Below are positions 684 through 19,537 of a stretch of 38,634 bases of DNA, piece after piece. The notes beneath the pieces were generated by a model, which saw only the letters and a program-made list of their open reading frames with translations, did not search any database and was not told the origin of the DNA. The translations under genes were made by a program, and so were the position numbers. The stretch's first letter is position 1; each line of letters starts with the position of its first letter. The stretch lies in IMG/VR virus record IMGVR_UViG_3300044470_000387, positions 1 through 38,634 of that record. One strand, 5' to 3'. Origin of the DNA: a virus.

Positions 684-1322
684 TTAAAAATCCCGGTCTT
701 GCTGCCGCATGGCGTATTTCGTCCGCAGGTCAATAGCCGCCATGCTCGCCCCGCCATCGCCCCATCTCACGGCAATGTCCACGCCGGCCCAGTTCCCGTC
801 ATACTTGCCGGTGCCCGTCTGATTGCCGTAGAAACCACCGGCAGACACTTCCAGCGGGTTCTTGTTGATCGTCCAGGTGTAAATGGGAATGTTCGCCCCG
901 GCCCGATTGGCGTTCATCAGGTTCCCGCCGTTGTCGCCATTTACCGGCGTGCCCACGGCCGTCACGCCAAAGGGCACGATATAAAAGTTCGTAAACCCAA
1001 AAGCATGGAGCGGATAAACCCTCAATTGAAGCTGGATGCCGCCGGAGATGTTGTAAGTGGATCCGGCCTGGCCCCTGGCCCACTGATGGTTGATGCCGCC
1101 GATGATGGCAAAGTTATTATTGAAGTTGAAAGCCCCGATCAGGCCAGCGGAATCCGCGTTGCCGGTCAGCTTGCGTTCGGCGAACCCCGCATAGACCATA
1201 TTGCTCGACCCGAGCGTATCTTTCCACAGGTTATTCAGGTCATCTTGAAACGTCTGTGCCCGCGCATTGCCGCCCGTGGCCAGCATGGCCGCCACGCCGA
1301 TGATTGAGAGTAGTTTCTTCAT
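684..1322 (-). CDS. Secreted, outer-membrane-beta-barrel-like protein
   Basis: This 212-residue protein starts with a clear Sec signal peptide (MKKLLSIIGVAAMLATGG, then an ARA-Q cleavage region). The rest has many short alternating strands rich in Gly, Asn and aromatic residues (NFNNNFAIIGGI, FTNFYIVPFG, DIAVRWGDGG), as in small outer-membrane beta-barrels. No family is recognised with certainty. Its start overlaps the stop of the upstream small membrane protein at 1319-1322, so the two are probably translationally coupled. Phage-encoded outer-membrane proteins such as Lom alter the lysogen surface or exclude other phages. That role is only inferred from position beside the spike and lysis genes. 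Confidence 0.6.
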   Translation of the reverse strand: MKKLLSIIGVAAMLATGGNARAQTFQDDLNNLWKDTLGSSNMVYAGFAERKLTGNADSAGLIGAFNFNNNFAIIGGINHQWARGQAGSTYNISGGIQLQLRVYPLHAFGFTNFYIVPFGVTAVGTPVNGDNGGNLMNANRAGANIPIYTWTINKNPLEVSAGGFYGNQTGTGKYDGNWAGVDIAVRWGDGGASMAAIDLRTKYAMRQQDRDF

Positions 1323-1827: not shown

Positions 1828-2037
1828 TCATGCGAGTGTAGCCAGTTGCATCCAAATGGCAAACCGCATCAGTTCGGCTACACAGGCGCAGCCAGTCTTG
1901 CGTAGGATTCGGGCGCGGTGTTCCTCGACGGTCTTTTCGCTGATGCCGAGGTCGGCAGCGATGGCAACCCCCTTTTTGCCAGCCAACATGCCATTAGCCA
2001 CTTGCACTTGTCGTTGGGTTAAAAATGGGCGTCTCAT
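1828..2037 (-). CDS. Stand-alone LuxR/GerE-type helix-turn-helix protein
   Basis: The 69 residues are almost entirely a GerE domain: LTQRQVQVANGMLAGKKG, then IAADLGISEKTVEEHR and ILRKTGC, matching the usual LTxRE...IAxxLxISxxTVxxHxxxIxxK pattern. There is no receiver or ligand-binding domain. The start overlaps the stop of the lipoprotein gene (ATGA at 2037-2034), so it is made from the same transcript as the surface genes. It could tune late or lysogenic surface expression. Its target is unknown. Stand-alone GerE domains occur in phages and mobile elements. Confidence 0.8.
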   Translation of the reverse strand: MRRPFLTQRQVQVANGMLAGKKGVAIAADLGISEKTVEEHRARILRKTGCACVAELMRFAIWMQLATLA

Positions 2038-2597
2038 TTTGACACCGGATTGACCTGGTAAAACCTCTGCCAGTTCGTCACCGAGTCGGTGAAGGTAAGG
2101 TTCGTGATGGACGGCCCAAAATTGTTCCAGCCGGACAGAATGTTGGTTCTGTATTGCGGTTGAAAATGAATTCCTGTGAAGTGCGAACTATCATCGTATT
2201 GAGCCAGTTGTGTATAGAATTTTGAGGCGTCAAACGCCCACGTCCGGGTGGTCACAAACGGCTTTGGGCAACTGATGTTTGATTGCCAGTAAATGCCGTT
2301 CGTCGTGATGAAGTCCAACTTGCACCCGTTGGTCAGGTTTATCCACCACACGACGAGTTTGTTGGTCTTGACGATTGTGGCCTGAACGCCCGCGGCGGCC
2401 AGCGGCACCGTAACAATACTGGTGACGTTGGTTGGTAGCGAGCTTCGCGCTGGCGGCAGCAGGGCTTCCAGTTGGTCTTGCAGCATCACCCGCCGGTCAG
2501 CCCACCCCTGCAACTGTGCCGCTGTAGGCTTTGGCACGGGCCTGGTCGCGCAGCCAGCCAGCAACAGGCAAACCAAGATTGAGAAGATGCATTTCAT
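2034..2597 (-). CDS. Lipoprotein of unknown function
   Basis: The N-terminus MKCIFSILVCLLLAGC is a type II signal peptide with the lipobox LAGC, so Cys16 should be lipidated. The mature 172 residues carry a short helical region (LQGWADRRVMLQDQLEALLP) and then an Asn/Thr-rich beta region ending in WQRFYQVNPVSK. It shares an ATGA overlap with the membrane protein upstream, and AAAGGAG lies just before the start, one of the few good Shine-Dalgarno sequences in the window. Superinfection exclusion or an outer spanin-like role are possible, but nothing in the sequence proves either. Confidence 0.65.
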   Translation of the reverse strand: MKCIFSILVCLLLAGCATRPVPKPTAAQLQGWADRRVMLQDQLEALLPPARSSLPTNVTSIVTVPLAAAGVQATIVKTNKLVVWWINLTNGCKLDFITTNGIYWQSNISCPKPFVTTRTWAFDASKFYTQLAQYDDSSHFTGIHFQPQYRTNILSGWNNFGPSITNLTFTDSVTNWQRFYQVNPVSK

Positions 2598-3640
2598 GGT
2601 GCTTCTCCTTTCTGGAAATCACTCAACTGCATCAGGCCCAAGGGCAGCAATTCGTAAAAGCACCGGAACTCAATTAAGTTACCCGCAAAAATTTGACCAG
2701 CCACAAAGACAAACGCCACCAGTTTAAGGGCCACGCGGCCCGGCAGTATCAGCATCATAAAGAGCAGTCCGCAGTTCGTGAATAATGGGCTGTTCAGGTG
2801 AAATGAAAAGAGTTCGCCTAAATTATATTTTACGTGCTGCAATCCCAGGGTGATGACGCTGGCGGTGTCATTGGCTTCATTGAATGGAAGCAGGATGGTG
2901 GTTGCTCCGCTGGCATACATGAGGAATTTACGGCAGATAACAAAAGAGAGCACGAGGGCGGCGAAACCGAGCAGCCGCTTTCTCCATGACCACGGCCCAA
3001 ACAAAATAAGTAAGGCGCAGACGAGTCCGGTTTCTTTGAATAAGGAGGCCAAGAAAACTACAGCCATCAATGGCCGGTATTCACCTTTCAGGAACACGAG
3101 AACAGCCCAAGTGAATAAACACAGGCTGGGCATGTCCCACGGCAGCCACCAACTTCCGGCTGGAACCGTCAGGTTATACATCAATCCGGCGAAGGTGCCG
3201 AACATCAGGAAAACAGCATCGGGCCGGTAATAGATAAACAGCCCAAAGAGCAGCGCGACCCATCCGGTTTGATAGAGGCCAAAGGAAATCTGCAACGGGT
3301 TAAAAGCATAACCATTCCACCAGACAAGAACAGGCCGTCCTTGCTGCAATAGCTTTTGAGCACGGGAAAAGGTCATGTCCCATATCTTGCCGGAAACAAA
3401 CTGGGGAGCTACACGGGTGGTGAAAATGGGGAATTCCCGTTCATAGTTCTCACCTTTGAAATTGAGGGGGTGGTGACTGAGGCGGGTAAAGAGGTAAACG
3501 TTCGTGCAACTAAAATCGTAGCCGCGGGGCATGATTACCGGAAGCATCAAAAAAAAGAAATAGACGCAAAGGGACAAGCCGATGAACACCTTTAAGGCGG
3601 TCAGACGAGTCCGCTTCAAAATGGATAGGCTGCGGGTCAT
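2594..3640 (-). CDS. Polytopic membrane protein, GT-C glycosyltransferase-like
   Basis: This 348-residue protein has about nine hydrophobic spans, the first at residues 17-38 (FIGLSLCVYFFFLMLPVIM). A soluble loop of about 70 residues follows, holding charged residues (GYDFSCTN, NYEREFP). The layout resembles GT-C glycosyltransferases and serotype-converting membrane proteins, but no diagnostic catalytic motif is certain. Its ATG overlaps the stop of the spike gene (ATGA at 3640-3637), so it is coupled to a protein carrying an esterase domain. Together they suggest modification of surface glycans. A host-derived membrane protein of another kind remains possible. Confidence 0.55.
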   Translation of the reverse strand: MTRSLSILKRTRLTALKVFIGLSLCVYFFFLMLPVIMPRGYDFSCTNVYLFTRLSHHPLNFKGENYEREFPIFTTRVAPQFVSGKIWDMTFSRAQKLLQQGRPVLVWWNGYAFNPLQISFGLYQTGWVALLFGLFIYYRPDAVFLMFGTFAGLMYNLTVPAGSWWLPWDMPSLCLFTWAVLVFLKGEYRPLMAVVFLASLFKETGLVCALLILFGPWSWRKRLLGFAALVLSFVICRKFLMYASGATTILLPFNEANDTASVITLGLQHVKYNLGELFSFHLNSPLFTNCGLLFMMLILPGRVALKLVAFVFVAGQIFAGNLIEFRCFYELLPLGLMQLSDFQKGEAP

Positions 3641-6600
3641 TGTAATTTATGCGCATGAAGGTGGGCGCTGTTGACCGAAAATGGCGCACCCCCTCCGGCC
3701 AAAACCCTCAAATCAATTTTTGTTCCTGCCGGAAGAAACATAGGCTGTTCCCCCTCAACAAGAATAACAGTTGCCGAACTGCTTATCGCCGATGAATCAT
3801 CGTTGGGACAGCCAACAGAAGCCTGCACGTCATTGGTGCAAACGGCGGAGAAAAATATTCCGTTGTCTCCCCCATCTTCAACATCTAAGGTGTAAGGAAT
3901 TGAAAAGATTCCAGCAGATAAGTTAGTCAATACCCCGAGCACCGCATTGCCGGAAAATCCATTCGTTGAAATACTTGACCAATTCGTAATAACTAAAGCA
4001 GCGGAACTGCCGTAACTGCCGTATATTTCCGATTTGTTGGTGTGGCTCAAGTTGCCCCAAGAATTAAGATTCGTCAGCCCGGAGCCGTTGCCGGTGAAGT
4101 TGGTAGAATATACGTTGTCGCTGTAAGTTGCGCTGACAGGATAAGAGGGAGCGCCCAATGTCTGCTCGGCTCCAGTGTATTGATTTCGGAAATACACCAC
4201 ACCGCCACCGGAGAAGATAGCTATATTGTCGTCAGCAGCATCCATTATGTTTCCACCATAAATATCTGATGAAGCAGCCTTTACTCTAATGTATGGCGTA
4301 TAAATAGTATTTGGGGTAACACCCCCGATATATGGTGGATTCGCAAGGGCTTGGCCTATCAACAAACGAACCTTCCCCTCCGTGACGACTTTCTGATTTT
4401 GGCCTAAAAACGGAGTCGTCAAAATTCCCTCTGCGACCAATTCGTAACCGGCAGCATTCAGATGGATGCCGTCGGAATGTAACGAGGTCGCTATGGTATC
4501 GTTTGCAAAAGCCCAGGCATCCCAGGCATTGTTTGTGTTTGCGGCATTTACCAGATACTTTCGCACGTCAAAATACTTATTGGAATAGAGGACGGACAAG
4601 TAGGTGTTGAGATTTGTAATCTGGTTATAGGTTGCAGTCCCCGCCGATTCATTAGTTTCGTTGATGACCGACAAAATTAAATAGTTGGTGTTCCCCACCA
4701 GGTCCAAGTTTGTCGTCATCGCATTGATGTCGGACAGGACGGTGTTGCTCGACGGATAATTGTTTCTGCCCGACCAGATAATTGTCGGATACACCCACAG
4801 AGAAGGCTTCGTCAAAAAGTTTGTCTTGATGTCTGTTGAACCGGCCCCGCCCACTCCTTGGTTTATTGTTGCCGTGCGCAACATCACACCCAGCACAACC
4901 GGATAACCTAACGCGAACGGGTTTGCATCACTACTGGAACCAGTACCGGCAGTCAACGAATCGCCCCAATAGACATTTGTATTAGACGGCGGCGGGACGC
5001 CGTTGTTTGTAACCAAGCCAACCAAAGTGGCCGCGGCTCCAGAGATGTTGCCGGCGATGCTGCTGCCGGGAATGTTGGTCCGGGTGACACCATCTGACGA
5101 TTCGTCGTCAATCACGCTGTAACAGGCGTAGGCGGCCACGCTGTCGCCGCTGGGTATGCCGGTGGATTTGTGGAACGTGGCCTTGGGCCACGAGTCCAGG
5201 GACGATCCGCCGACGGTGTAGAGAATGAGATTGCCGCTATTGACGTTGTTCGTGACCCAGTAACCGGTGACCGGTTCAATCCATTTGTTTGAACTTACCA
5301 CCCATACATAATTCATGGAGATGGCCAGCGCATCGCCGGAACTTAAAATGCAAATGCGGTTGGTATTCAGCCGATAAACCGGGTTGGTGCCGACCATAAT
5401 ATTAGTGACGATGTTGCCGAACTGGGCGACGGTGCTGTTGTAAAGTGTTATCAATGAGACTCCGGTCTGGGCGGCGGTAGTGCCAATCAGGGCGACGAGG
5501 GTTTGATTGGTGGCCGCCAGTGCGGCCAGCGTCTGCGCGTTCGTGGCGATGGTGGCGCCCACGGCCGCGTTCGTGCCGGCGGCGATCTGCGCCACCAGGC
5601 TGGCGTTGGTAGCCGCCAGCGCGGCCAGCGTCTGCGCGTTCGTGACGATGGTCGCGCCCACAGCCGCGTTCGTGCCGGCGGCGATCTGCGCCACCAGGCT
5701 GGCGTTGGTGGCCGCCAGCGCGGCCAGCGTCTGCGCGTTCGTGGCGATGGTGGTGCCAACGGCCGCGTTCGTGCCGGCGGCGATCTGCGCCACCAGGCTG
5801 GCGTTGGTGGCCGCCAGCGCGGCCAGCGTCTGCGCGTTCGTGGAGATTGTCGCGCCCATGGCCGCGTTCGTGCCGGCGGCGATCTGCGCCACCAGGCTGG
5901 CGTTGGTGGCCGCCAGCGCGGCCAGCGTCTGCGCGTTCGTGGTTATGGTCGCGCCCACAGCCGCGTTCGTGCCGGCCGTAAGTTGAACGGGTGAAACCCC
6001 GCCGGCGGCGATCTGCACCTGCAGCATGTTGCTAGATGAGTTTAAATCCGCCAGAATTTGAGTATTGGTGGCAATGAGCGCGCCAATGGCTGCGTTTGTG
6101 CCGTTGGCCAGCGCCGCCAACGTCTGGGTGTTCGTGGTTATTACCGCCCCGATGGCCGCGTTCGTTCCGGCGGCCAGCATCGCGACCAGGTTCGCGTTGG
6201 TCGCCACCAGCGCCGCCCGGATGAGCGTATTCGTGCCCACCGTAGCGCCGATCGCCGCGTTCGTGCCGTCAGCGAGCATCGCCGCCAGATTCGCATTGGT
6301 GGCGTTGATTTGGGCCACCAGGTTGGTAGTCACCGCATTTGTGCCCCGGTCAAAGCTGTTAGTGGTCGTATAGCCGGACCCGCTTAGAGTGGAATTGATA
6401 AGCGCGGTCAGATTGGTGGTAACATCATTTGTGGCTGAGGCTGGCGGCGGCACATACCCCAGCGCATTCGTCACCTGGTTGAAACTGACGACCGCATTGC
6501 TGCCGCCGGGAATTATTTGGGTCAGATAGACTCCGGGACCGGACCTTAAAACGCCTGGCTGGGTGAAAAAATAGACTGTCGGCCCGGCATCATCAGGTGC

Positions 6601-7077
6601 CCTGAAACAAATTGCCTGGGCCAGATTTGAATTGGTGGCATAATAATCTCCCGGCTCAAACCAATTCGTAGCCCGCCCATCGGCGGCGGGGGTAATGCGC
6701 TTGGGAATGTCCTGGGGCACGGGCGTACCATCAGCCAGCAACGAATCCTGAATCTTGACCACCTTGAAATCATTGGTAATCGGCACACCCGAATAGTTGG
6801 TCCAGGCAAACGAGATGTAAGCTGCAAAAGCGGTTGAGGGTTGAAGGATGAGAGTTGAGAGTAAAAAGGCCAATATGGGTAGGGCGGTGCTGCTGCGCCG
6901 CCAGGCGCCGGGGCACCGGCGCCCTACCGGAAAACCCTCAGCCCTCAACCAACAATTCTTAACCACTGAAGATGCCGCCGCGCGGCCGGGGAGGATCCGC
7001 CGCGCGACGGCTGGAACGGCGTATGGGGAAAGGTTCAATAACCCCACCGCCCGGAGAAAGTTAAAAATCAAATTCAT
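3637..7077 (-). CDS. Tail spike/fibre with repeat stalk and SGNH/GDSL esterase domain
   Basis: This 1,146-residue protein has four visible parts. Residues 1-86 include a hydrophobic stretch ending in AFAA that looks like a signal peptide. Residues about 200-360 hold diverged TNAAIGA/ATNANL repeats. Residues about 364-529 are five near-perfect 33-residue repeats (ATNASLVAQIAAGTNAA). An SGNH hydrolase domain follows at about 700-880: WGDSLTAGTG (Ser block), GVGGAG (Gly block), WSGRNN (Asn block) and SDGIHLNAAG (Asp/His block). A C-terminal beta-rich part follows. Such enzymes deacetylate capsule or O-antigen sugars during adsorption. The gene lies after the head module and is coupled to a polytopic membrane protein. 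The long N-terminus contains dispersed repeats, so the original start may have lain elsewhere. Confidence 0.75.
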   Translation of the reverse strand: MNLIFNFLRAVGLLNLSPYAVPAVARRILPGRAAASSVVKNCWLRAEGFPVGRRCPGAWRRSSTALPILAFLLSTLILQPSTAFAAYISFAWTNYSGVPITNDFKVVKIQDSLLADGTPVPQDIPKRITPAADGRATNWFEPGDYYATNSNLAQAICFRAPDDAGPTVYFFTQPGVLRSGPGVYLTQIIPGGSNAVVSFNQVTNALGYVPPPASATNDVTTNLTALINSTLSGSGYTTTNSFDRGTNAVTTNLVAQINATNANLAAMLADGTNAAIGATVGTNTLIRAALVATNANLVAMLAAGTNAAIGAVITTNTQTLAALANGTNAAIGALIATNTQILADLNSSSNMLQVQIAAGGVSPVQLTAGTNAAVGATITTNAQTLAALAATNASLVAQIAAGTNAAMGATISTNAQTLAALAATNASLVAQIAAGTNAAVGTTIATNAQTLAALAATNASLVAQIAAGTNAAVGATIVTNAQTLAALAATNASLVAQIAAGTNAAVGATIATNAQTLAALAATNQTLVALIGTTAAQTGVSLITLYNSTVAQFGNIVTNIMVGTNPVYRLNTNRICILSSGDALAISMNYVWVVSSNKWIEPVTGYWVTNNVNSGNLILYTVGGSSLDSWPKATFHKSTGIPSGDSVAAYACYSVIDDESSDGVTRTNIPGSSIAGNISGAAATLVGLVTNNGVPPPSNTNVYWGDSLTAGTGSSSDANPFALGYPVVLGVMLRTATINQGVGGAGSTDIKTNFLTKPSLWVYPTIIWSGRNNYPSSNTVLSDINAMTTNLDLVGNTNYLILSVINETNESAGTATYNQITNLNTYLSVLYSNKYFDVRKYLVNAANTNNAWDAWAFANDTIATSLHSDGIHLNAAGYELVAEGILTTPFLGQNQKVVTEGKVRLLIGQALANPPYIGGVTPNTIYTPYIRVKAASSDIYGGNIMDAADDNIAIFSGGGVVYFRNQYTGAEQTLGAPSYPVSATYSDNVYSTNFTGNGSGLTNLNSWGNLSHTNKSEIYGSYGSSAALVITNWSSISTNGFSGNAVLGVLTNLSAGIFSIPYTLDVEDGGDNGIFFSAVCTNDVQASVGCPNDDSSAISSSATVILVEGEQPMFLPAGTKIDLRVLAGGGAPFSVNSAHLHAHKLQ
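5490..5985 (-). repeat. 99-bp coding minisatellite (about five units)
   Basis: Five tandem units of 99 bases encode the 33-residue spike stalk repeat. The units are almost identical at DNA level (recurring CTGCGCGTTCGTGG and GCCACCAGGCTGGCGTTGG), differing mainly at one codon and a few third positions. The flanking repeats toward 6350 are more diverged. This points to recent expansion or homogenisation, which could change stalk length. Confidence 0.9.
6834..6952. repeat. TTGAGGG-type heptamer repeats flanking a palindrome pair
   Basis: Degenerate heptamers lie on both sides of the palindromic pair at 6877-6928: GTTGAGGGTTGAAGGATG on one side and CCCTCAGCCCTCAACC on the other. All are within the spike N-terminal coding region, where the minus strand reads STLILQPSTA. 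Other TTGAGNG loci are at 13978, 14469, 27079, 28487 and 37372. Confidence 0.75.
6877..6928. repeat. Paired inverted GTAGGGCGG palindromes (copies 2 and 3)
   Basis: One palindrome (6877-6902, GGGTAGGG...CGCCGCC) is followed one base later by an inverted copy (6904-6928, ending GCGCCCTACC). This is the head-to-head arrangement seen in BIME-like repeat pairs. The pair lies inside the spike ORF and is translated as the region around FPVGRRCPGAWRR. Confidence 0.8.
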
Positions 7078-7264
7078 GTAAATAAATCCCTGTTGCGCGG
7101 CCCGCCACTTTCCGCCTCCGTCGTTTTACGCAACCCGCCGCGTGTGGGCTCCAGCCCTTATACGCGGGTCATTCGTAATTGAGGGCAGAAGGATGGTGGT
7201 TGAAATTAAAGCGGCGCAAAGCGCCAGCGTGTATTTTGTTTTCATTTTGTATTTTGTTTCAGGG

Positions 7265-7591
7265 TCAGTTGTCTTTTACCGTCAGTTGCATGGCCAAATA
7301 TTTCAGATGCAAACTGGCCGCATTGTCCGGCGCGGCAGCCGGCAGTATTTTGAACCGGGCGCCAAGGGCCGTAACTTCATCGCCCGCCGCCATGTCCACC
7401 GTCCGGTCCAGAATGTGGAACCAGTGGCTGGCCCTCGGATCACGCCCCAGCTCGGTATTCAGTTCCAGGTCGGCCAGCGGCTCAATTTTGGCGCGGAATG
7501 TTTTGCCCGTGCGGAGGTTCTTTGCATCGTCCTCCTCAAAGACGGCGGTGGCGGTCTGGCCCGCCATCGCCATGTCTCGCGCCATGCTCAT
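7265..7591 (-). CDS. Head-tail joining protein candidate
   Basis: This 108-residue protein has a short alpha-helical start and a beta-rich remainder (FRAKIEPLADLELNTELGRD, HILDRTVDMAAGDEVTALG, YLAMQLTVKD). The size and beta-barrel-like pattern suit a head-tail stopper or adaptor, and it is the last gene of the head module before the spike. It follows the signal-peptide protein after only 3 bases. No family motif is diagnostic, so the role is inferred from size and order. The stretch 7078-7264 downstream has no supported gene. Confidence 0.5.
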   Translation of the reverse strand: MSMARDMAMAGQTATAVFEEDDAKNLRTGKTFRAKIEPLADLELNTELGRDPRASHWFHILDRTVDMAAGDEVTALGARFKILPAAAPDNAASLHLKYLAMQLTVKDN

Positions 7592-7594
7592 GAA

Positions 7595-8161
7595 TTACCA
7601 GACGTAACGCTTGGTGGCCCATTTCAAGTAATTATTCGTCCAACTGGCCGCCGCGGCCGTCCATTGAATTGAGATCAGACGCACGGTGCCAAAACCTCCG
7701 TTCCAGAAAGCCGGCAGATTGGTGCTGGCCTGCCCGGCCCCGGCGGCCGGCTGGTTGATGGTCAGGCTGAAGGTGGCGTTGGTGTCCACGCTGGTTGAAT
7801 CCAGTCCGTGCCCGAACGTAAACACATTCGTGCCAATGCCGGCAGTTTCAGAAATGACAATGGCCAGCTCGTCTTGCATCTGCATACTCATGTCCGCATA
7901 CAGCGTGTTCGTGTAATACCCGATGGTGGTATTGGTCACAAATGTGGTATTACTGAACGTGATGCTGCTGTTCGTGTATGATCCGATGCTCGACCAACCC
8001 GACCCAAAATTGGTCGTGACATTGGCCGCCAGCGTGCTTACGGGCAGCGTCAGCGTGTTCGCGGTATAACTGCCGCTCGGCGGTATGCCCTGACTGAATG
8101 CGGTCAGCGCCGCCGCGCCCAGCGCGGTGATGGTAAGAAGAATTTTTTGTGTGAATTTCAT
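7595..8161 (-). CDS. Secreted Asn/Thr-rich protein inside the head module
   Basis: This 188-residue protein begins with a Sec signal peptide (MKFTQKILLTITALGAAALT followed by AFSQG). The mature part is rich in Asn, Thr and Ser (SIGSYTNSSITFSNTTFVTN) with predicted beta structure. It lies between the capsid genes and the head-tail joining candidate, where decoration or connector proteins are usually found. A cytoplasmic virion component would not be expected to carry a Sec signal. Its leader on the minus strand contains CAACCAACAAAATCCAACC instead of a Shine-Dalgarno sequence. The function is unknown. Confidence 0.6.
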   Translation of the reverse strand: MKFTQKILLTITALGAAALTAFSQGIPPSGSYTANTLTLPVSTLAANVTTNFGSGWSSIGSYTNSSITFSNTTFVTNTTIGYYTNTLYADMSMQMQDELAIVISETAGIGTNVFTFGHGLDSTSVDTNATFSLTINQPAAGAGQASTNLPAFWNGGFGTVRLISIQWTAAAASWTNNYLKWATKRYVW

Positions 8162-8229
8162 TTTGATGATTGGTTGGATTTTGTTGGTTGATTTTTGTTT
8201 GGCCCCGCCGCGTGACGGCGCCAGCCGTT

Positions 8230-8529
8230 TTACGCGGTTTTGGCCCCGGTTAATTCGATTTGCGCCGCTTTCGGTTTGGCCGCCTCGGCCAGTTCCATCC
8301 GGCGCTTGTGCGCCGCAATCTGATCGGGATGGTCCGTGGTGTCGTGAACGACGTTTTGCAATGGTACAAGCAGCGGATTTGCGATGCTGAAAAACTTCGC
8401 ATCCTCATTCTTGACCATCAGTTTGGTGTGGGCGGCGCGGAGCGCGGCGCCATCGGACCCGCAGTAGAAAACTTCCACCTTGGGCTGGGCGCCCTTGACG
8501 GGCGTCTGTTTGATTCCGATTTGAATCAT
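8230..8529 (-). CDS. Small conserved-looking head-module protein
   Basis: A 99-residue protein with an N-terminal strand-rich part (IQIGIKQ, PKVEVFYCGSDGAALRAAH) and a charged helical C-terminus (IAAHKRRMELAEAAKPKAAQ). It is the first gene after the major capsid gene, separated by the hairpin at 8562-8603. I do not recognise its family. A decoration or minor capsid role is possible from position alone. Confidence 0.5.
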   Translation of the reverse strand: MIQIGIKQTPVKGAQPKVEVFYCGSDGAALRAAHTKLMVKNEDAKFFSIANPLLVPLQNVVHDTTDHPDQIAAHKRRMELAEAAKPKAAQIELTGAKTA

Positions 8530-8561
8530 AAATGTTATGGTTGAATTTTTCCCGGTCCCTT

Positions 8562-8603
8562 CCCTCGCCCCGCCAAAGCGGGGAGAGGGTCGGGGAGAGG
8601 GGA
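8562..8603. repeat. CCCTC/GAGGG hairpin repeat between capsid gene and next gene
   Basis: CCCTCGCCCCGC, the loop CAAA and GCGGGGAGAGGG form a strong stem with one mismatch, followed by a further GGGGAGAGGGG. This is the style of a widespread bacterial GGGGAGAGGG intergenic repeat. It sits just after the major capsid stop and could reduce read-through into the next gene. There is no T-run on the minus side, so intrinsic termination is not supported. Confidence 0.65.
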
Positions 8604-8609
8604 ATTTGA

Positions 8610-9725
8610 TTACACGTCGTTTCCGCTGGTCACCACGCGCACGCCAGCGCGGTCGGTAATGGTATTGGCAGCGCCGCCCTGGTTTCCGCCGGCCACGCCA
8701 AACAGGATGCCGATGCTGATATACAGATCGCCCGTGCCCGGGTCCTGCCAGCCAACCGCCACGAATGGCAGGCCGGTTTCCTGGTCAACCATCGGGGTGA
8801 ACGACATGATCTTGGGAATGCCCAGTGCCTCGGGCGAGACCTGCGCGAAGTCAATCGGGCGCACGGCCACAATAATGCCGCGCCGGTCGCCAAAGTAGCC
8901 GCTCAGATTGGCGGCGGACGGCATGTCCGGGTATTCGTAAATGTTGGCGAACCCGGCCAGGTTCTTGTAGCGGCGATACGCCGTGTCGCCATTCAGCATG
9001 TTGTAAAACAGGCTGGACCCGACCCGTTGATCGGCCTGGAGCGCGCCGGCAAAAGCCGTGCTCACGATGCCAAACCGGCCAAACGGCGCGGCCTTTTGCG
9101 TGTTCAACTTGCTGCGCAAGGCTTCCACGCTGTCCAGGTTCACGTTGGCCGGATCGACGGCCTTTTGATACGTGAAATTCGCCGGCAGAATGACGCCCAG
9201 CGCCGTGTCAATGAGCAGTTTGCGCAGCGCATAGCCCTGCTCCATCAACGCGACGGACAGGTTGATTTTGCTGCTCAACTGCGTGAGCCATTTAATGCGG
9301 ATGGGCACGTGCTTGAAGTAACTCAGGGTCACCGGCACGTCCTGCAACAGATCGGTGGAATCCTGTACGCCGCTGGCAAAACCGACTCCCGGTGTGGGAT
9401 CATAGTTTTGCGCCGTTGGAACCTGGCCGATGTGAGATGTAATTTTGTCATTCAAGCGCGCGGTCTTGCTCTCGATGTCCAGTGCAAACCCGCCCGGCTC
9501 GAATAATTCCGGCGTTTGAATCTTGAATGCCTCCAGCACGAGCTGCGATAGCTCCGGCACGCTCAAGGTAACACGCAGGCATCCCGCCGGCCGCGTGAAG
9601 CCCGCGTTGATGAATGCCGTGGCAATCAGCAGCAGGGCGAACGCGGCCAAACTGTGTTGCAACAGCCCAATGACAGCGGCCAAAAGTATTGCCGCCCAGA
9701 TGAATGTGAATTTGATGTTTTTCAT
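8610..9725 (-). CDS. Major capsid protein (lambda gpE-like position) with hydrophobic N-terminus
   Basis: This 371-residue protein follows portal and protease/scaffold, the lambda order for the major capsid gene. Residues from about 60 onward read like HK97-fold capsid proteins of the gpE type (LYISIGILFGVAG near the end; a P-domain-like DFAQVSPEALGIPKIMSFTP with substrate-like Asp/Gly turns). Unusually, residues 5-42 form one or two hydrophobic helices (FTFIWAAILLAAVIGLLQHS, then LAAFALLLIATAFI). I chose MKNIKF at 9725, since an AACCAAAAACCAAA leader precedes it. A longer frame to 9773 is less likely. The protein has no obvious long coiled-coil delta domain, which fits a separate scaffold. 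Confidence 0.7.
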   Translation of the reverse strand: MKNIKFTFIWAAILLAAVIGLLQHSLAAFALLLIATAFINAGFTRPAGCLRVTLSVPELSQLVLEAFKIQTPELFEPGGFALDIESKTARLNDKITSHIGQVPTAQNYDPTPGVGFASGVQDSTDLLQDVPVTLSYFKHVPIRIKWLTQLSSKINLSVALMEQGYALRKLLIDTALGVILPANFTYQKAVDPANVNLDSVEALRSKLNTQKAAPFGRFGIVSTAFAGALQADQRVGSSLFYNMLNGDTAYRRYKNLAGFANIYEYPDMPSAANLSGYFGDRRGIIVAVRPIDFAQVSPEALGIPKIMSFTPMVDQETGLPFVAVGWQDPGTGDLYISIGILFGVAGGNQGGAANTITDRAGVRVVTSGNDV

Positions 9726-9774
9726 TTTGGTTTTTGGTTGAATTATTTGTTGATTCAATTCGCCTGGCGGCAAA

Positions 9775-10287
9775 TCAGTTGCGGGTTGTCGGCTCGGCGG
9801 TTTGTTTTTTGAACAAGCCGTCCAGGCCGCGCAGCTTGAGCGAGTTCATGGCCAGTGCCCCGCGCTGTTCAGCGGTCGTGTCCTTGCCGTCCATCTGCTC
9901 CACGAGCCCTTCAATCTGCCCGTCCACGTCGGCCGGATCCGCTTCGCCGGGCCGGCGGGCGGGGGGCGCGCCGCGGGGCGCTTTGGCGGCGTGCGCTGCG
10001 CGTAAATCGGCAATCTGCGCGGTTACTTCGGTTTCGCCATTGGCGCTGGCCGTGCCAATAGCCAGCAGGCCGGTCTTGCGGGTCTCGGCAATGACCTTTT
10101 CGGTCACGGCCGCGTCCAGCAGCGCTGTCACGCGCGTCTTGCGGGCGTCCAGGTGCTTGGTGATTTCCACCTGGAAATTCGAGCGCTCGCTGATGAGCGT
10201 TTGAATATGAGGCAGAATTTGGTTTTCGTCGGCGTCGGCGGGGATGGAAAATCCAGCCGCCACCAACGCAGTGATGATGTTTTTCAT
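9775..10287 (-). CDS. Nested in-frame scaffold (Nu3-like internal start)
   Basis: An internal ATG at 10287-10285, in frame with the protease, starts MKNIITALVAAGFSIPADAD. It is preceded by CCCAACCAAAGACAAAAAGC, which resembles the leaders of other genes here, including the capsid gene. This would give a separate 170-residue scaffold, as Nu3 is made from within gene C of lambda. Internal initiation is inferred from the leader and from the known arrangement. Confidence 0.5.
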   Translation of the reverse strand: MKNIITALVAAGFSIPADADENQILPHIQTLISERSNFQVEITKHLDARKTRVTALLDAAVTEKVIAETRKTGLLAIGTASANGETEVTAQIADLRAAHAAKAPRGAPPARRPGEADPADVDGQIEGLVEQMDGKDTTAEQRGALAMNSLKLRGLDGLFKKQTAEPTTRN

Positions 10288-11028
10288 GCTTTTTGTCTTT
10301 GGTTGGGGGTTTGGTGTTGGTGGCCGCGGCGGTGTCGCCGTTGCCTGTGCGCGCACGGAGAGCCGTGAACGCAAATCCTGTAAAATCTGGGGCGGGTTTT
10401 TGAATGCGGAAATCACTTCCAGTTCCTGCCGGGCTTCGGCATCATCCAGTTCCTGCTCCGGCTCGGTTTCGCCGCTCGCCTCGTCGCACATGCCGAGTTC
10501 CTTGGCCTTGTCGCCGGACATGAAGGTTTCCGCCTTGAGCAGGGCCAGCGTGTCCTCTTTGGATTTGCCCATGCGCTTGGAATAAACTGCCACCTGCGTC
10601 TCATCGCAGACCTTGAGAAAATCTGCCACCTTCAGCTTGTCATCGGCGTTGCCGTAATCGGCACAAGCAGCCATGTGAATCATCGTCACGGAAGCTGCCG
10701 GGCAGACCACGCGAGCGCCGGCGCAAAGCACGAGGGAGGCCCCGGAGCAACAATAACCCTCGTTATATGTGGTGACGTCGGGCTGCCGGCGCACAAGCGC
10801 GTTGTAGATGCCGAGCGACATTCCGTGGTCGCCGCCTTTGCTGTTGATTCGGACGTTGATTTTTTTTCCGGCCGGGATTTGGGCGAGTTCATTGAGCACC
10901 TCGGTTTCAACATCGGTGATGGACCAATCCGGGTTCATGCGCAGGCCGATGATCCCGCGAATGGATATTTCCGCCGGGTCATCTCCGGCCTGGCACCGGA
11001 CATCAAAATTGAAGGGCAGTTTTTTCAT
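9775..11028 (-). CDS. ClpP-type (S14-like) prohead protease fused to scaffold domain
   Basis: Residues about 20-170 form a ClpP-fold protease: NVRINSKGGD, then GYCCSGAS (nucleophile Ser95), then VTMIHMA (His118), with Asp142 in CDETQVAVYSKRMG a candidate third residue. A linker at about residues 220-247 is Pro-rich. The C-terminal 170 residues are helical (VEITKHLDARKTRVTALLDA) and resemble scaffold domains that carry an ADADEN-like repeat near their start. Its ATG overlaps the portal stop (ATGA). In lambda the same gene pair (C and nested Nu3) cuts and shapes the prohead. This protein should do the same for the capsid gene downstream. Confidence 0.8.
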   Translation of the reverse strand: MKKLPFNFDVRCQAGDDPAEISIRGIIGLRMNPDWSITDVETEVLNELAQIPAGKKINVRINSKGGDHGMSLGIYNALVRRQPDVTTYNEGYCCSGASLVLCAGARVVCPAASVTMIHMAACADYGNADDKLKVADFLKVCDETQVAVYSKRMGKSKEDTLALLKAETFMSGDKAKELGMCDEASGETEPEQELDDAEARQELEVISAFKNPPQILQDLRSRLSVRAQATATPPRPPTPNPQPKTKSMKNIITALVAAGFSIPADADENQILPHIQTLISERSNFQVEITKHLDARKTRVTALLDAAVTEKVIAETRKTGLLAIGTASANGETEVTAQIADLRAAHAAKAPRGAPPARRPGEADPADVDGQIEGLVEQMDGKDTTAEQRGALAMNSLKLRGLDGLFKKQTAEPTTRN

Positions 11029-12713
11029 GCGTTTTGCGGTTGGAGTTGGCGGTTTTTGTTTTTGCCCGGCGCGGGTTCGCCGACGGCGCCGGCGTCATCA
11101 TCCGGCGAGGGTGAAGTTTCGCGGAAACTTACCGCGCTGGTCACGGCCAGGTTCAGGAATTGTTTGAATTCCACCGCGCTTTTAAACGGTTCACTTTCAG
11201 CAATATCGGTAATCAGGAAGCGCCGGTGTTTGGCTTCCTTCACGATCAAGGCCATTTGCTCATCGCCATCCAGCGCCATCTCGCCAAAGTATTCGTCCGT
11301 GGAAAGCAGCCCGTCCTGTACGGCCGCGCGCCGGTCGGCATCCCGGTTGCGGTCCACCGTAAGGCTCCCGGTGAAATGCCATTCCAGATTGTCCCAATCC
11401 TCCGGCACTTTGGATTTGAATACCCGGTCCTCGATGCCGCCCTGGATGAAGTATTCCGCTATGGTCTGCAGGTCGCCCGCGAAATCATCCTGCAAAATGG
11501 CCACCACCCGCTGCGCAATTTGCAAATCGCGCCGGATGTCAGTGCCGCCAACATCTATCGGCAGCACCATGCTGGGCGGCAGGCCGGTGGTAAGCACCAC
11601 CAGGTTGGACAGATACGCCATGAACCCGCTCCAGGCCGAGCCGGGCCGGGCGGGCACATAAGGCGTGTATTTGTCTCCCGTGCGGAGCACCACTGGCGCG
11701 CCCTGGAATTTCGTATTGTAATAAGCCGTTTTGTTCGAGTCGTCTTTGGGCAATGACATCGGCGTGGGGAAATTTCCCTGCCCGGCGCCGAACGGCAGCT
11801 TGAGCATGCTTTCCGGGTCGAGATCGCCGGAGAGCGTCTGAATGATGTCCTGTTTGGCGCTGGCGTCCTTTACCGCAGCCTTTTCCAGATCAATGATGTC
11901 TTTGATGTCATGCGCGGTGTTGATGGCCGCCGCCAGAATGGTCTCGCCCCGCACCTGCTCGTCGCGCTCGATAATGGCGTGATGGACCACCAGATTTTCA
12001 GGCACCGGCTGGTCCATGCCGGTGAAATTGTATTGCCGGGGATAACCGGTCGGGAAAAAATCTATACCATCGCCGCCGGAGGTGGCATCCGATGGTTTGG
12101 TGTTGAACGCATCCGCGCTGCCATAAACCAACGACTTGTTTTTTTGCGGCAGGCCGGGAGAGGTGGGCAGCGTGCCGCCGCAGCGGTGCCACTCAAATCC
12201 CTGCAATTTGTCCTCGCCCGTGCGTTCATCGTGGACAAATACGGTAAAGCTCTCGCCGTGCTTGCACATGCCGGTCATCTTCACGCGCTGATAATTTCCA
12301 AAACCCTTTTTGTTGTCAACGCAGGGACAGCGGAATTTGCGGCGCAGAAAAGTTTTTAGTTCCGCGTTGAATTCCTTGCTGGCTGATTTGGGCGTAGGAA
12401 ATGCGCCCACGCCAATGATGAGCGTCACCAGCCGTTTGATGACGCCGCGGATGATGGGTGAATTTTTCCAGAGCGCCTCGGCCCGCTTGTTCAGCTCGTA
12501 CCGCGTGAAGCGGTCCAGATCCTTTTTGGCGTCCTGCACCGGATACCAGATCCATGAGCGGTTCGGCGACCACCGGCTGGAGTCGTACCATTGCGCCTGC
12601 GCATCGCCGCGCGAGCGCTGCCGCGGCGCGGTCATGCCGCGAATTTCAACCAACTCGTGCTGCGTCAGCAGCGGAGCTCGGCGGCCCTGGATAATGGGGT
12701 TGGCGCGGCTCAT
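11025..12713 (-). CDS. Portal protein (lambda gpB family)
   Basis: This 562-residue protein has the features of lambda-type portals: an N-terminal RWSPNRSWIWYPVQDAKKDL, then LVTLIIGVGAFP and RVKMTGMCKHGESFTVFV. The FTGMDQPVPENLVVHHAIIE strand matches the position of the RADQxRG region, here read as RDEQVRGETILAAAINT. A late LTTGLPPSMVLPIDVGGTDI segment and an acidic, Pro-rich tail follow. Portals form the dodecameric ring at the packaging vertex and bind terminase. It overlaps its neighbours by 4 bases on both sides, as expected for a coupled head operon. Confidence 0.9.
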   Translation of the reverse strand: MSRANPIIQGRRAPLLTQHELVEIRGMTAPRQRSRGDAQAQWYDSSRWSPNRSWIWYPVQDAKKDLDRFTRYELNKRAEALWKNSPIIRGVIKRLVTLIIGVGAFPTPKSASKEFNAELKTFLRRKFRCPCVDNKKGFGNYQRVKMTGMCKHGESFTVFVHDERTGEDKLQGFEWHRCGGTLPTSPGLPQKNKSLVYGSADAFNTKPSDATSGGDGIDFFPTGYPRQYNFTGMDQPVPENLVVHHAIIERDEQVRGETILAAAINTAHDIKDIIDLEKAAVKDASAKQDIIQTLSGDLDPESMLKLPFGAGQGNFPTPMSLPKDDSNKTAYYNTKFQGAPVVLRTGDKYTPYVPARPGSAWSGFMAYLSNLVVLTTGLPPSMVLPIDVGGTDIRRDLQIAQRVVAILQDDFAGDLQTIAEYFIQGGIEDRVFKSKVPEDWDNLEWHFTGSLTVDRNRDADRRAAVQDGLLSTDEYFGEMALDGDEQMALIVKEAKHRRFLITDIAESEPFKSAVEFKQFLNLAVTSAVSFRETSPSPDDDAGAVGEPAPGKNKNRQLQPQNA

Positions 12714-13464: not shown

Positions 13465-14520
13465 TTACAGCATAATTGCGCCCTGATTCTGCCGCGCGGA
13501 CCACCAGGGGCGAGTGGCGGTGGTGACGTATTGCAGAAAACGGAGCTTGGGACCGCCTGAAGGCGGGACATCAAACTGAGAGCAGACTTCGGCGTGGACG
13601 GTGAAGGTGCGGCGGGCGTATTCTTCCCAGGCTTCTTTATCGCGTGAGACGTGCGCGAATTCGTATTCTTCCCAGTGAAAATCGGCTTTGCTCAACGCGG
13701 AAAGTGTCCGACTGAATGATTCGCCGCGGGCGTTGAGGACTTCGGCCCAGACGTGTTCGCATTTTTCGTAACGCAGGGCGTTGGCCATCTCGCGGGCGAA
13801 TTTGTCGTAATCATTTTGAGGCAGGGACGGGCAGACCATGGCGAAGGTGCGAAATCCGTTGTCCTGGAGCCAGTGCAGGCTGGCGAGGCGTTTGCTAACG
13901 AGGGGTGTGCCGTGCTCGAAGGCGGAGGCGAGCCGGTCGTCGAGGGTGCCGGTGCTGACGCCGTAGATTACCCGCCGTTGAGGGTTGAGGGTTGAGGGTT
14001 GAGCAAGACCTTCCGCGATTTTGGGGAGCAGATTCGATTTGGATAGCAAACGGATATCCCATTTCGTGAGTTCGAGAATCACCTTGCACATTTCGACGGT
14101 TTCGCGGACGAGTTCCATATTTCCGGCCACGTCCACGGCCGGGCTGGCGTAGATGGTGAGTGGTTTGTCCCAGAGCGCGCGGGCTTTTGGCGCGTGCAGT
14201 TGCCGGTCCAGAACGTCCACGGCGCCCTCGCGCCGGATCACGATGTCTTCATGCCGGCCCTGGACGCCGTGCGCTTCAAGGAATTCGCGTTGTTTTCGGA
14301 AGATGTCCGGCACGTAGCAAAACGAGCAGGAGTAAACGCAGGCCGTTCCGGCGCTGAAGGTGGGGCCGGAACAAAGCCGCTTGTGCTTGAAACCGCTGTC
14401 GAGGTTCAGGACGGTCTTGGTCGGGATGGTAAACACGGGCTTGCCGTTCATTTTTTCCCGCTGCTTGGTTAAGGGTTGAGGGTTGAGGGTTGAGGGAGGT
14501 AAAAGTTCGGTGGTGATCAT
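13465..14520 (-). CDS. Radical SAM protein (SPL-like CX3CX2C)
   Basis: This 351-residue protein has the radical SAM cluster motif CVYSCSFC (Cys61, Cys65, Cys68), preceded by GPTFSAGTA and followed by a TIM-barrel-like series: KPLTIYASPAVDV, WDIRLLSKSNLLP, VIYGVSTGTL, FRTFAMVCPSLP. The aromatic Tyr after the third Cys and the DIRLLSKS strand recall the spore-photoproduct-lyase-like subgroup. The substrate is unknown. Three dispersed repeats lie inside the ORF: STLNPQ at residues 10-15, a second STLNPQ near residue 178, and VPPSGG near residue 320. The start overlaps the upstream stop (ATGA), though Met24 may be the original start. Confidence 0.75.
   Translation of the reverse strand: MITTELLPPSTLNPQPLTKQREKMNGKPVFTIPTKTVLNLDSGFKHKRLCSGPTFSAGTACVYSCSFCYVPDIFRKQREFLEAHGVQGRHEDIVIRREGAVDVLDRQLHAPKARALWDKPLTIYASPAVDVAGNMELVRETVEMCKVILELTKWDIRLLSKSNLLPKIAEGLAQPSTLNPQRRVIYGVSTGTLDDRLASAFEHGTPLVSKRLASLHWLQDNGFRTFAMVCPSLPQNDYDKFAREMANALRYEKCEHVWAEVLNARGESFSRTLSALSKADFHWEEYEFAHVSRDKEAWEEYARRTFTVHAEVCSQFDVPPSGGPKLRFLQYVTTATRPWWSARQNQGAIML
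13549..13569. repeat. GGGACCGCC/GGCGGGAC palindrome inside radical SAM gene
   Basis: GGGACCGCC, TGAA and GGCGGGAC form a 21-base hairpin in frame within the radical SAM gene, encoding VPPSGGP. It is a different family from the GTAGGGCGG palindromes. Its presence near the C-terminus suggests a tolerated insertion. Confidence 0.6.
13978..14003. repeat. TTGAGGG heptamer repeat in radical SAM gene
   Basis: About three and a half copies of TTGAGGG occur in frame and are translated on the minus strand as AQPSTLNPQR. Because 7 is not a multiple of 3, each copy number change shifts the frame, so the retained ORF implies selection or a recent event. Confidence 0.8.
14469..14497. repeat. TTGAGGG heptamer repeat at radical SAM gene start
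   Basis: Four TTGAGGG-type copies between the ATG at 14520 and Met24, encoding PPSTLNPQPLTK. They make it possible that the original gene began at Met24 (MNGKPVF, 14451). Confidence 0.8.
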
Positions 14521-17065: not shown

Positions 17066-19537
17066 TTACAAGGTTTTTTCACTGTTTTTTGCGTCTTTTT
17101 CGTACCTGAAAACACCCTTCCAAACCGCCAGCGCAATCATGTTTTTTATGCAGTCGTACAGGTGGTTGGGGTGCAGTCGGCTTTGTGACCCGCCATGCTT
17201 GGCCGGGCTGTCCCAGCAACTGTTCCGGTCGTCCCAAAAATAACCCTTCATGTGGTGGTCAAATTCCTTGCGGTCCACCGGCCGCATCTCGGCATTGAGA
17301 CCGAAAAACTTTACCTCGGGCGAGAGCCCAAAGGCATACCGCTTGCGCACCCGGGCCATTTCACTCAACGCCCATTGGGCGTCAAATTGAAAAACGTATT
17401 GGAAATATTGCCGCGCCTCCATCTTGCCGCTGAAGGGATCGTTTATCACCTGCCCGTAAGGCAGCCGGATTTTGTCCTTGCTCGGCCACGCCTTGTGTTC
17501 GGGAAACCCCATGCAGGGCGTCCAGCCGCCCAGGGCAAAAGGTTTCAGGCCCGGAATTGGCCCCTGCGAAAACTTGTTGCTCATGCCCAGCGGCGTCTGG
17601 ATGGGCGAATAATAAATGAACCCGGCCGGCGGACAGCGCCGGAAACATTCCGCGTAGACTTCCGCATTGTCCATGGACCCAAATCGCGCATCCACCATCA
17701 CGTCCGGGTTGGAGATATTGTGCCGCCGCTGCACTTCATCCAGTTCTTCCCATGAATCCGCCGAGCCGATCTCCAGCCCCTGGCTGTCGCCCTGTTTTCC
17801 CAGCGGCACATTCACCTCCGGCTGGCGGGCAATAAATTCGAGCAGGCGGATCAGGTCGGTCTGAAATTCCACCTGGAAGAATTCCACCAGTCGTTTCCCG
17901 GTAAGCCCGTTGGCAATAAGCCAGTCGGCCAGGCGAGGCCAGTGGTCCGTGCGCTGGATTTGTTCCAGAATCGAAAATGGCGAATAAAGTGTGGCCGGCG
18001 CTGGCGGCAGCAGTGAGCCGCAGATTTTTTCAACCAGTTCTTTTTCTTCCGCGGGTAATTCCTTGAGAAAGGCAATTTGTTGTTCGGCGGTGCGCGCCGG
18101 GCGCAGGATGGAAAAGACAAATTCCCAAACCACGTACCAGAAGCCGGGATATTTTTCCTGCCGATCGCCGGACAACATTTTCAGGCGCAAGACGGAATCG
18201 GCGCGCGGTTGTTGGTTCAAAATCTCCACCTCGGCGCTCGCCGCGTGTTCCTGCCCCATCTCCGGCAGGCCGAGAATGGAGTTGATGAAGTTGCGGATGG
18301 CTTCGCCACCCTCTTCCACCGCGTTCAGAAATGCCACCGCCCGGCCGCCCCAGGTGCTTTCCTCATTTATCACCGGCGCGTAAAGCGAGCTGATCAGATA
18401 ACCCACATGGCCGGGCTCGCTGGGCTTGACGCAGATCCAACAGCCATTGGTGTCCATCCAGAGCTTGAGGGTGGCCAGCATCCGACCGGCGGCCATATTA
18501 TCGGCGGCCACGTCGCGGATGGCCTTGCGGCAGTGTGGGCAGATGAAATGCGCGTTTTGTTTGGCGCGCTGCACGTTCCAGGCGCCATCGCGGCCCTTGG
18601 CGTCGTTTACCGGGTTTTCTTTGGTGCTGTTCTCCGCAAACCGGAACTGCAAAAATGCGGTGGGGATTTCCCGCCCGTTTAAAGCGGTGTCCGCGCCAAT
18701 GAATTTGCGCGGCAGTCCGGCGGCAAATTGTTCGCTCCAGGCTAGTATCAGCCAGCCGGCAAAATTCTTTGACTTGGCCTCAATTACGCGTTCTTCCTCA
18801 GTCTTGCCGTGCAATCCACCGTTGCAATGCGGGCAGGGCATGAAGCGCAGATGCAGGTTGCTGCGCATCACGTCCTGCCAGATAAGCCCGTTCTCGATGC
18901 TCGGGGTGCTGGTGTTGAATATCTGGTATTCCGCCACGCCTTCGGTGCTGCCTTTGATGAGATTGGCCGTGCCCGCCTCGTTTCCGAGCCGCATTCTGAA
19001 TTTTTCTTTTTCATCCATGCGGATGTCACCCAGCCGGTTGCCCACCACTTGCCCGGCTGAATTGCTGCCCACAAAACCAAAGTGCGCCCCGCCAATGCGC
19101 GCGTGCTGGTTGTTGATCGCAAACCGGATCTGACCGCGGGGCAGCAAGGTGACTACTGGCGCCGTTGCTTCCAGGTCTGGAATCAGCCGCGTAGAGACAA
19201 AATTGCGCGAGCCGCCTTCGCCGTTCGTTGATGGAAACACCATGAGCCCGCGCACCGGCGCAAATACGATTTTGAACAGGATGCCGATTATTTGGGAGAT
19301 GGTTTTGCCGCAGCCGCGCCCGAAAACCAGCGTCTGCTCGCGCACTTTGGGGTTATTGTTGTCGCGGATGGGACGGCGCAGATAATTGCGCCCGGTAAAA
19401 TCACACCGGCCTTTTATTTGTTCTTCGTTGAAGTTTACGACGCGCTCGGCCCACTCATCTGGTTCTTCCGATGGCGGCGGAGCAAAAAACCTCCTCAATT
19501 GCACCAGGCAATGATTGAAATCGTGCGTGGAAATCAT
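17066..19537 (-). CDS. Terminase large subunit (GpA family)
   Basis: The packaging motor and nuclease, 823 residues, longer than lambda gpA (641). The Walker A motif is VFGRGCGKT (71-79) and a Walker-B-like IRMDE sits at 172-176. Two CPHC zinc-knuckle-like pairs (Cys235/238 and Cys333/336) occur where GpA-type enzymes carry cysteines. The nuclease half includes DVMVDARFGSMD, which gives the first acidic metal ligand, and the C-terminus HPNHLYDCIKNM. A stretch at about residues 470-590 (WEFVFSILRPARTAEQQIAF, then a helical part) is the likely source of the extra length. Its start overlaps the putative small terminase stop (ATGA). Confidence 0.9.
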   Translation of the reverse strand: MISTHDFNHCLVQLRRFFAPPPSEEPDEWAERVVNFNEEQIKGRCDFTGRNYLRRPIRDNNNPKVREQTLVFGRGCGKTISQIIGILFKIVFAPVRGLMVFPSTNGEGGSRNFVSTRLIPDLEATAPVVTLLPRGQIRFAINNQHARIGGAHFGFVGSNSAGQVVGNRLGDIRMDEKEKFRMRLGNEAGTANLIKGSTEGVAEYQIFNTSTPSIENGLIWQDVMRSNLHLRFMPCPHCNGGLHGKTEEERVIEAKSKNFAGWLILAWSEQFAAGLPRKFIGADTALNGREIPTAFLQFRFAENSTKENPVNDAKGRDGAWNVQRAKQNAHFICPHCRKAIRDVAADNMAAGRMLATLKLWMDTNGCWICVKPSEPGHVGYLISSLYAPVINEESTWGGRAVAFLNAVEEGGEAIRNFINSILGLPEMGQEHAASAEVEILNQQPRADSVLRLKMLSGDRQEKYPGFWYVVWEFVFSILRPARTAEQQIAFLKELPAEEKELVEKICGSLLPPAPATLYSPFSILEQIQRTDHWPRLADWLIANGLTGKRLVEFFQVEFQTDLIRLLEFIARQPEVNVPLGKQGDSQGLEIGSADSWEELDEVQRRHNISNPDVMVDARFGSMDNAEVYAECFRRCPPAGFIYYSPIQTPLGMSNKFSQGPIPGLKPFALGGWTPCMGFPEHKAWPSKDKIRLPYGQVINDPFSGKMEARQYFQYVFQFDAQWALSEMARVRKRYAFGLSPEVKFFGLNAEMRPVDRKEFDHHMKGYFWDDRNSCWDSPAKHGGSQSRLHPNHLYDCIKNMIALAVWKGVFRYEKDAKNSEKTL

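Follow-up and report, generated by a model that had tools for sequence, protein, structure and literature searches.

The window analysed here, the whole 38,634-nucleotide stretch of the IMG/VR virus record IMGVR_UViG_3300044470_000387, holds a phage head gene cluster in the order terminase, portal, ClpP-type protease and major capsid protein (MCP). The MCP gene (9725-8610, minus strand) begins with an ATG and encodes 371 amino acids. The features of the cluster are as follows.

7595-8161, minus strand: protein with a signal-peptide-like N-terminus and a beta-sandwich, downstream of the MCP gene and before the head-tail genes
8230-8529, minus strand: small conserved gene 3' of the MCP gene, syntenic, 51-52% identical in the relatives L002 and L003
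8613-9569, minus strand: HK97-fold capsid core of the MCP, residues 53-371, a structural match to the P22 procapsid coat
9570-9725, minus strand: N-terminal extension of the MCP (predicted hydrophobic hairpin plus linker), residues 1-52, with 13 homologues having such an extension and 21 without
9660-9710, minus strand: hydrophobic helix 1, residues 6-22 (FTFIWAAILLAAVIGLL), uncharged (KD17 2.57, hydrophobic moment 0.00)
9600-9650, minus strand: hydrophobic helix 2, residues 26-42 (LAAFALLLIATAFINAG), uncharged (KD17 2.12)
9570-9599, minus strand: linker, residues 43-52 (FTRPAGCLRV), positively charged, with model pLDDT under 50 at residues 46-53
9775-11028, minus strand: ClpP-type (S14) prohead protease with a scaffold-like C-terminal half (PF00574, E 2.7e-19; PHROG head maturation protease, E 2.4e-40)
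11025-12713, minus strand: portal, lambda family (PF05136, E 2e-22)
17066-19537, minus strand: terminase large subunit, GpA type (PF05876, E 1.3e-14)

The succession of portal, protease and MCP is kept in relatives where it was found. Between the packaging and head genes lies a Radical-SAM-like protein (13465-14520, minus strand) that falls under the Pfam cut-off.

Identity of the major capsid protein

The fold, the head gene order and the PHROG family hits together identify the gene as an HK97-fold MCP, as the sequence-only reading had proposed. The model core (residues 49-369) aligns in VIA-align with the P22 procapsid coat 8i1v_G over 275 residues (Z 17.6, rmsd 3.8), many further HK97-fold chains score above Z 13, and Foldseek matches the core to the capsid of mycobacteriophage Douge (E 6e-12). 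The window MCP alone gives a weak match to the PHROG "major head protein" annotation (E 0.026), and two PHROG families of that name, 267 and 283, are matched by 25 and 24 of the 34 homologues, with best E values of 1.9e-17 and 8.4e-18, respectively. Pfam and NCBIfam returned nothing for the window MCP, a sequence-profile search of the PDB gave no significant match, and tblastn against 50,697 phage and 72,556 plasmid records produced no matches. Its HK97-fold core also sets the protein apart from the double jelly-roll MCPs of internal-membrane phages of the PRD1 and PM2 type. Separately, the capsid cores of L053 (4809-6227), L054 (4809-6239) and L050/L051 (4995-6191) contain some 80 inserted residues (alignment columns 313-399); tail-fibre and baseplate-wedge PHROGs are matched by members of the capsid set, and this insertion is the presumed cause.

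The closest cultured point of comparison is the siphovirus P8625, a Verrucomicrobia phage (PMC4642752) and the sole named relative of the window portal in the phage collection. Like the window, P8625 (NC_029047) has a GpA terminase, a small gene, a portal, a Clp protease and an MCP in the same order, and its P22-coat-like MCP, gp11, is homologous to the window MCP family (hhalign probability 98.6%, E 1.2e-15). Unlike the window MCP, gp11 starts MATNTIAGVNLAQIAEES and has no hydrophobic extension. From this one weak portal match, the hosts of the hairpin phages are probably Verrucomicrobia; among 396 Acidobacteriota genomes only two members of the family were found, both hairpin-less.

A predicted membrane-type hairpin and its distribution

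According to prediction, the MCP extension folds into a membrane-type hairpin of two helices; a short linker, flexible and positively charged, connects it to the HK97-fold core. No other gene of the window head cluster has such an N-terminus. In 19-residue Kyte-Doolittle averages the extension shows two peaks, 2.33 starting at residue 4 and 2.01 starting at residue 26, while the core reaches at most 1.17. The two helices are joined by a QHS turn and flanked by K2 and K5 before helix 1 and by R45 and R51 after helix 2. Structure prediction, which the sequence-only reading had named as a check, upheld the hairpin: AlphaFold2, run on the window MCP with an input of 34 sequences (mean pLDDT 79), places helices at residues 2-23 and 26-43 (pLDDT about 79), followed by the low-confidence linker and the HK97 core. 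Since positively charged flanks stay cytoplasmic under the positive-inside rule, the positive ends and short turn predict that both ends of the hairpin lie in the cytoplasm, which would keep the capsid domain where the terminase works.

Relatives of the window MCP were collected from IMG/VR and from genome contigs, and 12 other distinct MCPs turned out to carry the same kind of extension, of 49-70 residues with two segments (L002, L003, L008-L011, L016, L022, L024, L025, L053 and L054). By hydropathy thresholds, as distinct from a trained topology predictor, all 13 extensions contain two 17-residue stretches with a mean Kyte-Doolittle value of at least 1.66 and hydrophobic moments of at most 0.28, and they have K or R at both outer ends with few charges between. 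Another 21 homologues have no extension and start two or three residues ahead of the equivalent of window T53, most of them with M-[AS]-(x)-TLS. The expectation that capsid proteins avoid such segments thus holds for these 21 homologues, which is as far as it can be taken here, and the idea that homologues would start after the hydrophobic region is true of the same, more distant proteins and false for the closest ones, which keep the extension. One MCP gene was present per virus record searched, the two matches in the L053 record and likewise in L054 being pieces of a single gene, so that every subunit should be made with the hairpin.

Sequence divergence is concentrated in the extension. Among close relatives it is 29-40% identical, compared with 78-87% for the core; between the window and L002 or L003, core identity is 87% or 81% and extension identity 29% or 39%, and across these three sequences dN is 0.62-0.77 in the extension versus 0.09-0.16 in the core. 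Within the extension codons, change is least at the second position, the one that mostly determines hydrophobicity. When the window extension was simulated under neutrality at matching divergence, an open frame and two hydrophobic segments were kept in 0.6-2% of runs. Judged by these substitution patterns, the extension is translated and is selected for a hydrophobic hairpin instead of for a fixed sequence.

The frame is open 5' of the gene as far as a TTG at 9773, and ATG 9725 is taken as the start because its A-rich context is shared with relatives, in agreement with the earlier view that the gene has no other likely start. That translation really begins near residue 54, with the upstream frame open by chance, is hardly credible. 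An in-frame TTG (9566-9564, residue 54) and GTG (9560-9558, residue 56) do lie at the core boundary, at the point where hairpin-less homologues start. Against this, the open frame and double hydrophobic pattern recur in 13 homologues, change is least at second codon positions, and neither codon is conserved: near the boundary, L008 and L016 lack any start-like codon and L002 has only one, in a different place. An internal start was therefore rejected, and the proposal of a true start near residue 45 is left unsupported. Because it recurs in 13 MCPs, is rarely kept by neutral simulation and has no conserved internal start beside it, the hairpin is best described, from comparative sequence evidence, as a real lineage-specific domain and not an annotation artefact.

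Ten hairpin-bearing members form one clade in the MCP tree (support 100/100), and L016 and L053/L054 fall outside it on long branches. The hairpin requires two changes on this tree, yet the AU test does not reject a constraint to one clade (p 0.13); with L053/L054 removed, it gives a borderline result (p 0.057). A single origin and two origins are both compatible with the tree, the placement of L016 and L053/L054 being uncertain on account of their long branches.

As far as the literature searched extends, the core is that of an ordinary HK97-fold MCP and the hairpin extension is a previously undescribed variant. No HK97-fold MCP with membrane helices was found in that literature, a weak absence since most subscription papers were outside its coverage.

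Possible roles of the hairpin in head assembly

N-terminal pieces of MCPs are removed in other phages, and the hairpin appears to correspond to them in position, while in type it would be a membrane anchor. In T4, 65 N-terminal residues of gp23 are removed by the prohead protease, and proheads begin on the inner membrane at a membrane-bound portal (PMC9958956). T4 gp23 thus resembles the window MCP in its HK97 fold and in having an N-terminal piece that, at 65 aa, is about as long, but in T4 it is gp20, the portal, and gp40 that provide the membrane link, instead of the MCP. In HK97, the N-terminal scaffold (delta) domain of gp5 is cut off at K103/S104 by the phage protease (PMC10275583). Like this domain, which is attached to the N-arm of the core, residues 1-52 of the window MCP precede the core and end at T53, where hairpin-less homologues start; the delta domain, however, consists of about 100 residues in coiled-coil helices of the amphipathic kind, whereas the extensions of the window group are 49-70 residues long, apolar and of low hydrophobic moment. 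The major capsid protein pVIII of filamentous phages offers a further parallel in being held in the membrane before assembly (PMC3185693), although its fold and assembly are unrelated and its single membrane helix is retained in the virion. According to a 2011 review, membrane association of proheads during assembly had not been demonstrated beyond T4 (PMC3185693).

The presence of the hairpin in this lineage, and its absence from related phages, points to head assembly that begins at the cell membrane. Perhaps the hairpin is a transient anchor: it would bring MCP subunits together on the cytoplasmic membrane while proheads assemble, until the prohead protease cuts it off at the linker, a reading that is tentative but quite plausible. 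The hairpin would insert into the membrane as the MCP emerges, with both ends cytoplasmic and the capsid domain facing the cytoplasm; the MCP would be concentrated there with portal, scaffold and protease, and prohead assembly would begin at this site. The protease would then cut the linker near residues 45-53, so that the mature MCP begins at a point equivalent to the start of hairpin-less relatives and the shell is released for packaging. Fast divergence with hydrophobicity retained is the pattern of membrane anchors and cleaved leaders. All three roles offered in the sequence-only reading (cleavage by the ClpP-type protease, lining of an internal membrane, tethering of proheads) are compatible with the sequence. 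A transient, cleavable tether is favoured because the extension is hypervariable yet hydrophobic, both its ends are predicted to be cytoplasmic and the linker sits exactly at the hairpin-less start. The adjacency of the protease and MCP genes also supports cleavage, making the ClpP-type protease (9775-11028) a candidate for hairpin removal and the linker a candidate protease site. The linker junction CAVTLSVPE is invariant in six relatives (L008-L010, L022, L024 and L025), and no clear recognition site is conserved across the group, with CAV before TLS in one subclade and CLRV, ALQV or VLRL in that of the window.

In HK97 procapsids the N-terminal scaffold faces inward (PMC10275583), and with N-terminal segments so placed it is geometrically awkward to tether a completed prohead simply from the outside. 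Three options follow: the tether acts before closure, the shell is curved around a membrane, or the hairpins serve as an internal hydrophobic scaffold. Tethering a closed shell to a planar membrane would be hard unless the tether acted before closure, and in the transient-anchor model the tether would indeed act before the shell closes. That an HK97-fold tailed-phage shell assembles around or on a bilayer by way of its MCP hairpins, so that at least the prohead has an internal membrane, is improbable. If the transient anchor is real, the membrane would be a direct platform for HK97-fold shell assembly, with a hairpin on every major capsid subunit. It would also pose a testable topology problem, as the N-termini of the HK97 fold face the inside of the procapsid, and the hairpin-bearing and hairpin-less families would provide a natural comparison.

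Alternatively, neighbouring hairpins could bundle inside the procapsid, steer assembly and then be degraded, with no membrane involved, as a kind of "greasy delta domain". This is unlikely, if still to be taken seriously: the hairpin would sit on the N-arm inside the procapsid, where HK97 has its scaffold domain with N-terminal coiled-coil helices (PMC10275583), phage scaffolds commonly have helix-loop-helix motifs (PMC3185693) and the AlphaFold model shows a hairpin, but the helices are uniformly apolar with a low hydrophobic moment, unlike amphipathic coiled coils, and the extension is hypervariable. The thought that the hairpin replaces a scaffold is weakened further by the scaffold-like half already included in the window protease gene. 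Retained hairpins might instead line an internal lipid membrane, the HK97-fold shell enclosing a vesicle. A hairpin on every subunit with both ends shell-side would suit such a lining, as would N-terminal segments that point to the procapsid interior (PMC10275583). Packaged DNA fills that interior, however, a prohead protease is present for removing such parts, and no dedicated set of internal-membrane proteins was seen in the window. To our knowledge, no virus with a portal and an HK97 shell has an internal membrane, and the lining is accordingly a doubtful proposition.

The segment could also be an export signal on the MCP, in keeping with the signal-peptide-like starts that recur in structural-region neighbours of the same phages, namely the 7595-8161 gene and fibre-like genes. 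This seems very doubtful, for there are two hydrophobic segments instead of one, the second is trailed by positive charges, an A-x-A site is not consistently present, and head filling by the terminase requires a cytoplasmic shell. The S21 pinholin has two membrane helices with both ends inside, and a peptide of 49-70 residues with the same layout, released at maturation, might act on the membrane in a similar way and tie lysis to head maturation. Such a link is more far-fetched still, given that the peptide would be hidden if released inside proheads and that the window has a small holin-like gene elsewhere (1571-1807), with a single membrane segment.

Neighbouring genes with signal-like starts

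The model of the 7595-8161 protein shows a beta-sandwich after a signal-like segment (mean pLDDT about 80). Homologues, all signal-like at the start, occur at 10 of the 12 other hairpin-bearing loci (L002, L003, L008-L011, L016, L022, L024 and L025). The hairpin and this neighbour are only partly coupled: L034, L035 and L039 have the neighbour without the hairpin, and L053/L054 the reverse. It would be unusual for a head cluster to encode an exported protein. Past the homologue in the L022 phage come three large genes of 1436, 362 and 1202 codons (L057 coordinates 8246-12556, 7156-8244 and 3629-7237, minus strand), probably for tail fibres, which also start signal-like. The fibre-like gene of the window (3637-7077, minus strand) has a signal-like segment near residue 68; its protein contains TNAAxGAxxxTN repeats and, at residues 705-880, matches GDSL lipases weakly. 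The signal-like starts in hairpin phages hint that virion proteins may be linked with the cell envelope more broadly, with no single mechanism supported.

Two further window genes have starts of a related kind. The one at 684-1322 (minus strand) has a signal-like start (MKKLLSIIGVAAMLATGGNARA) and the look of an outer-membrane barrel, with no PHROG or Pfam match, and that at 2034-2597 (minus strand) has a lipobox-like start (MKCIFSILVCLLLAGC), making it a candidate phage lipoprotein. The window also contains the repeats TTGAGGGTTGA (five copies) and GAGTTGAGAGT (two copies), a short element read as STLNPQ or STLNSQ in several frames, which we take to be one that occurs in Verrucomicrobia genomes.
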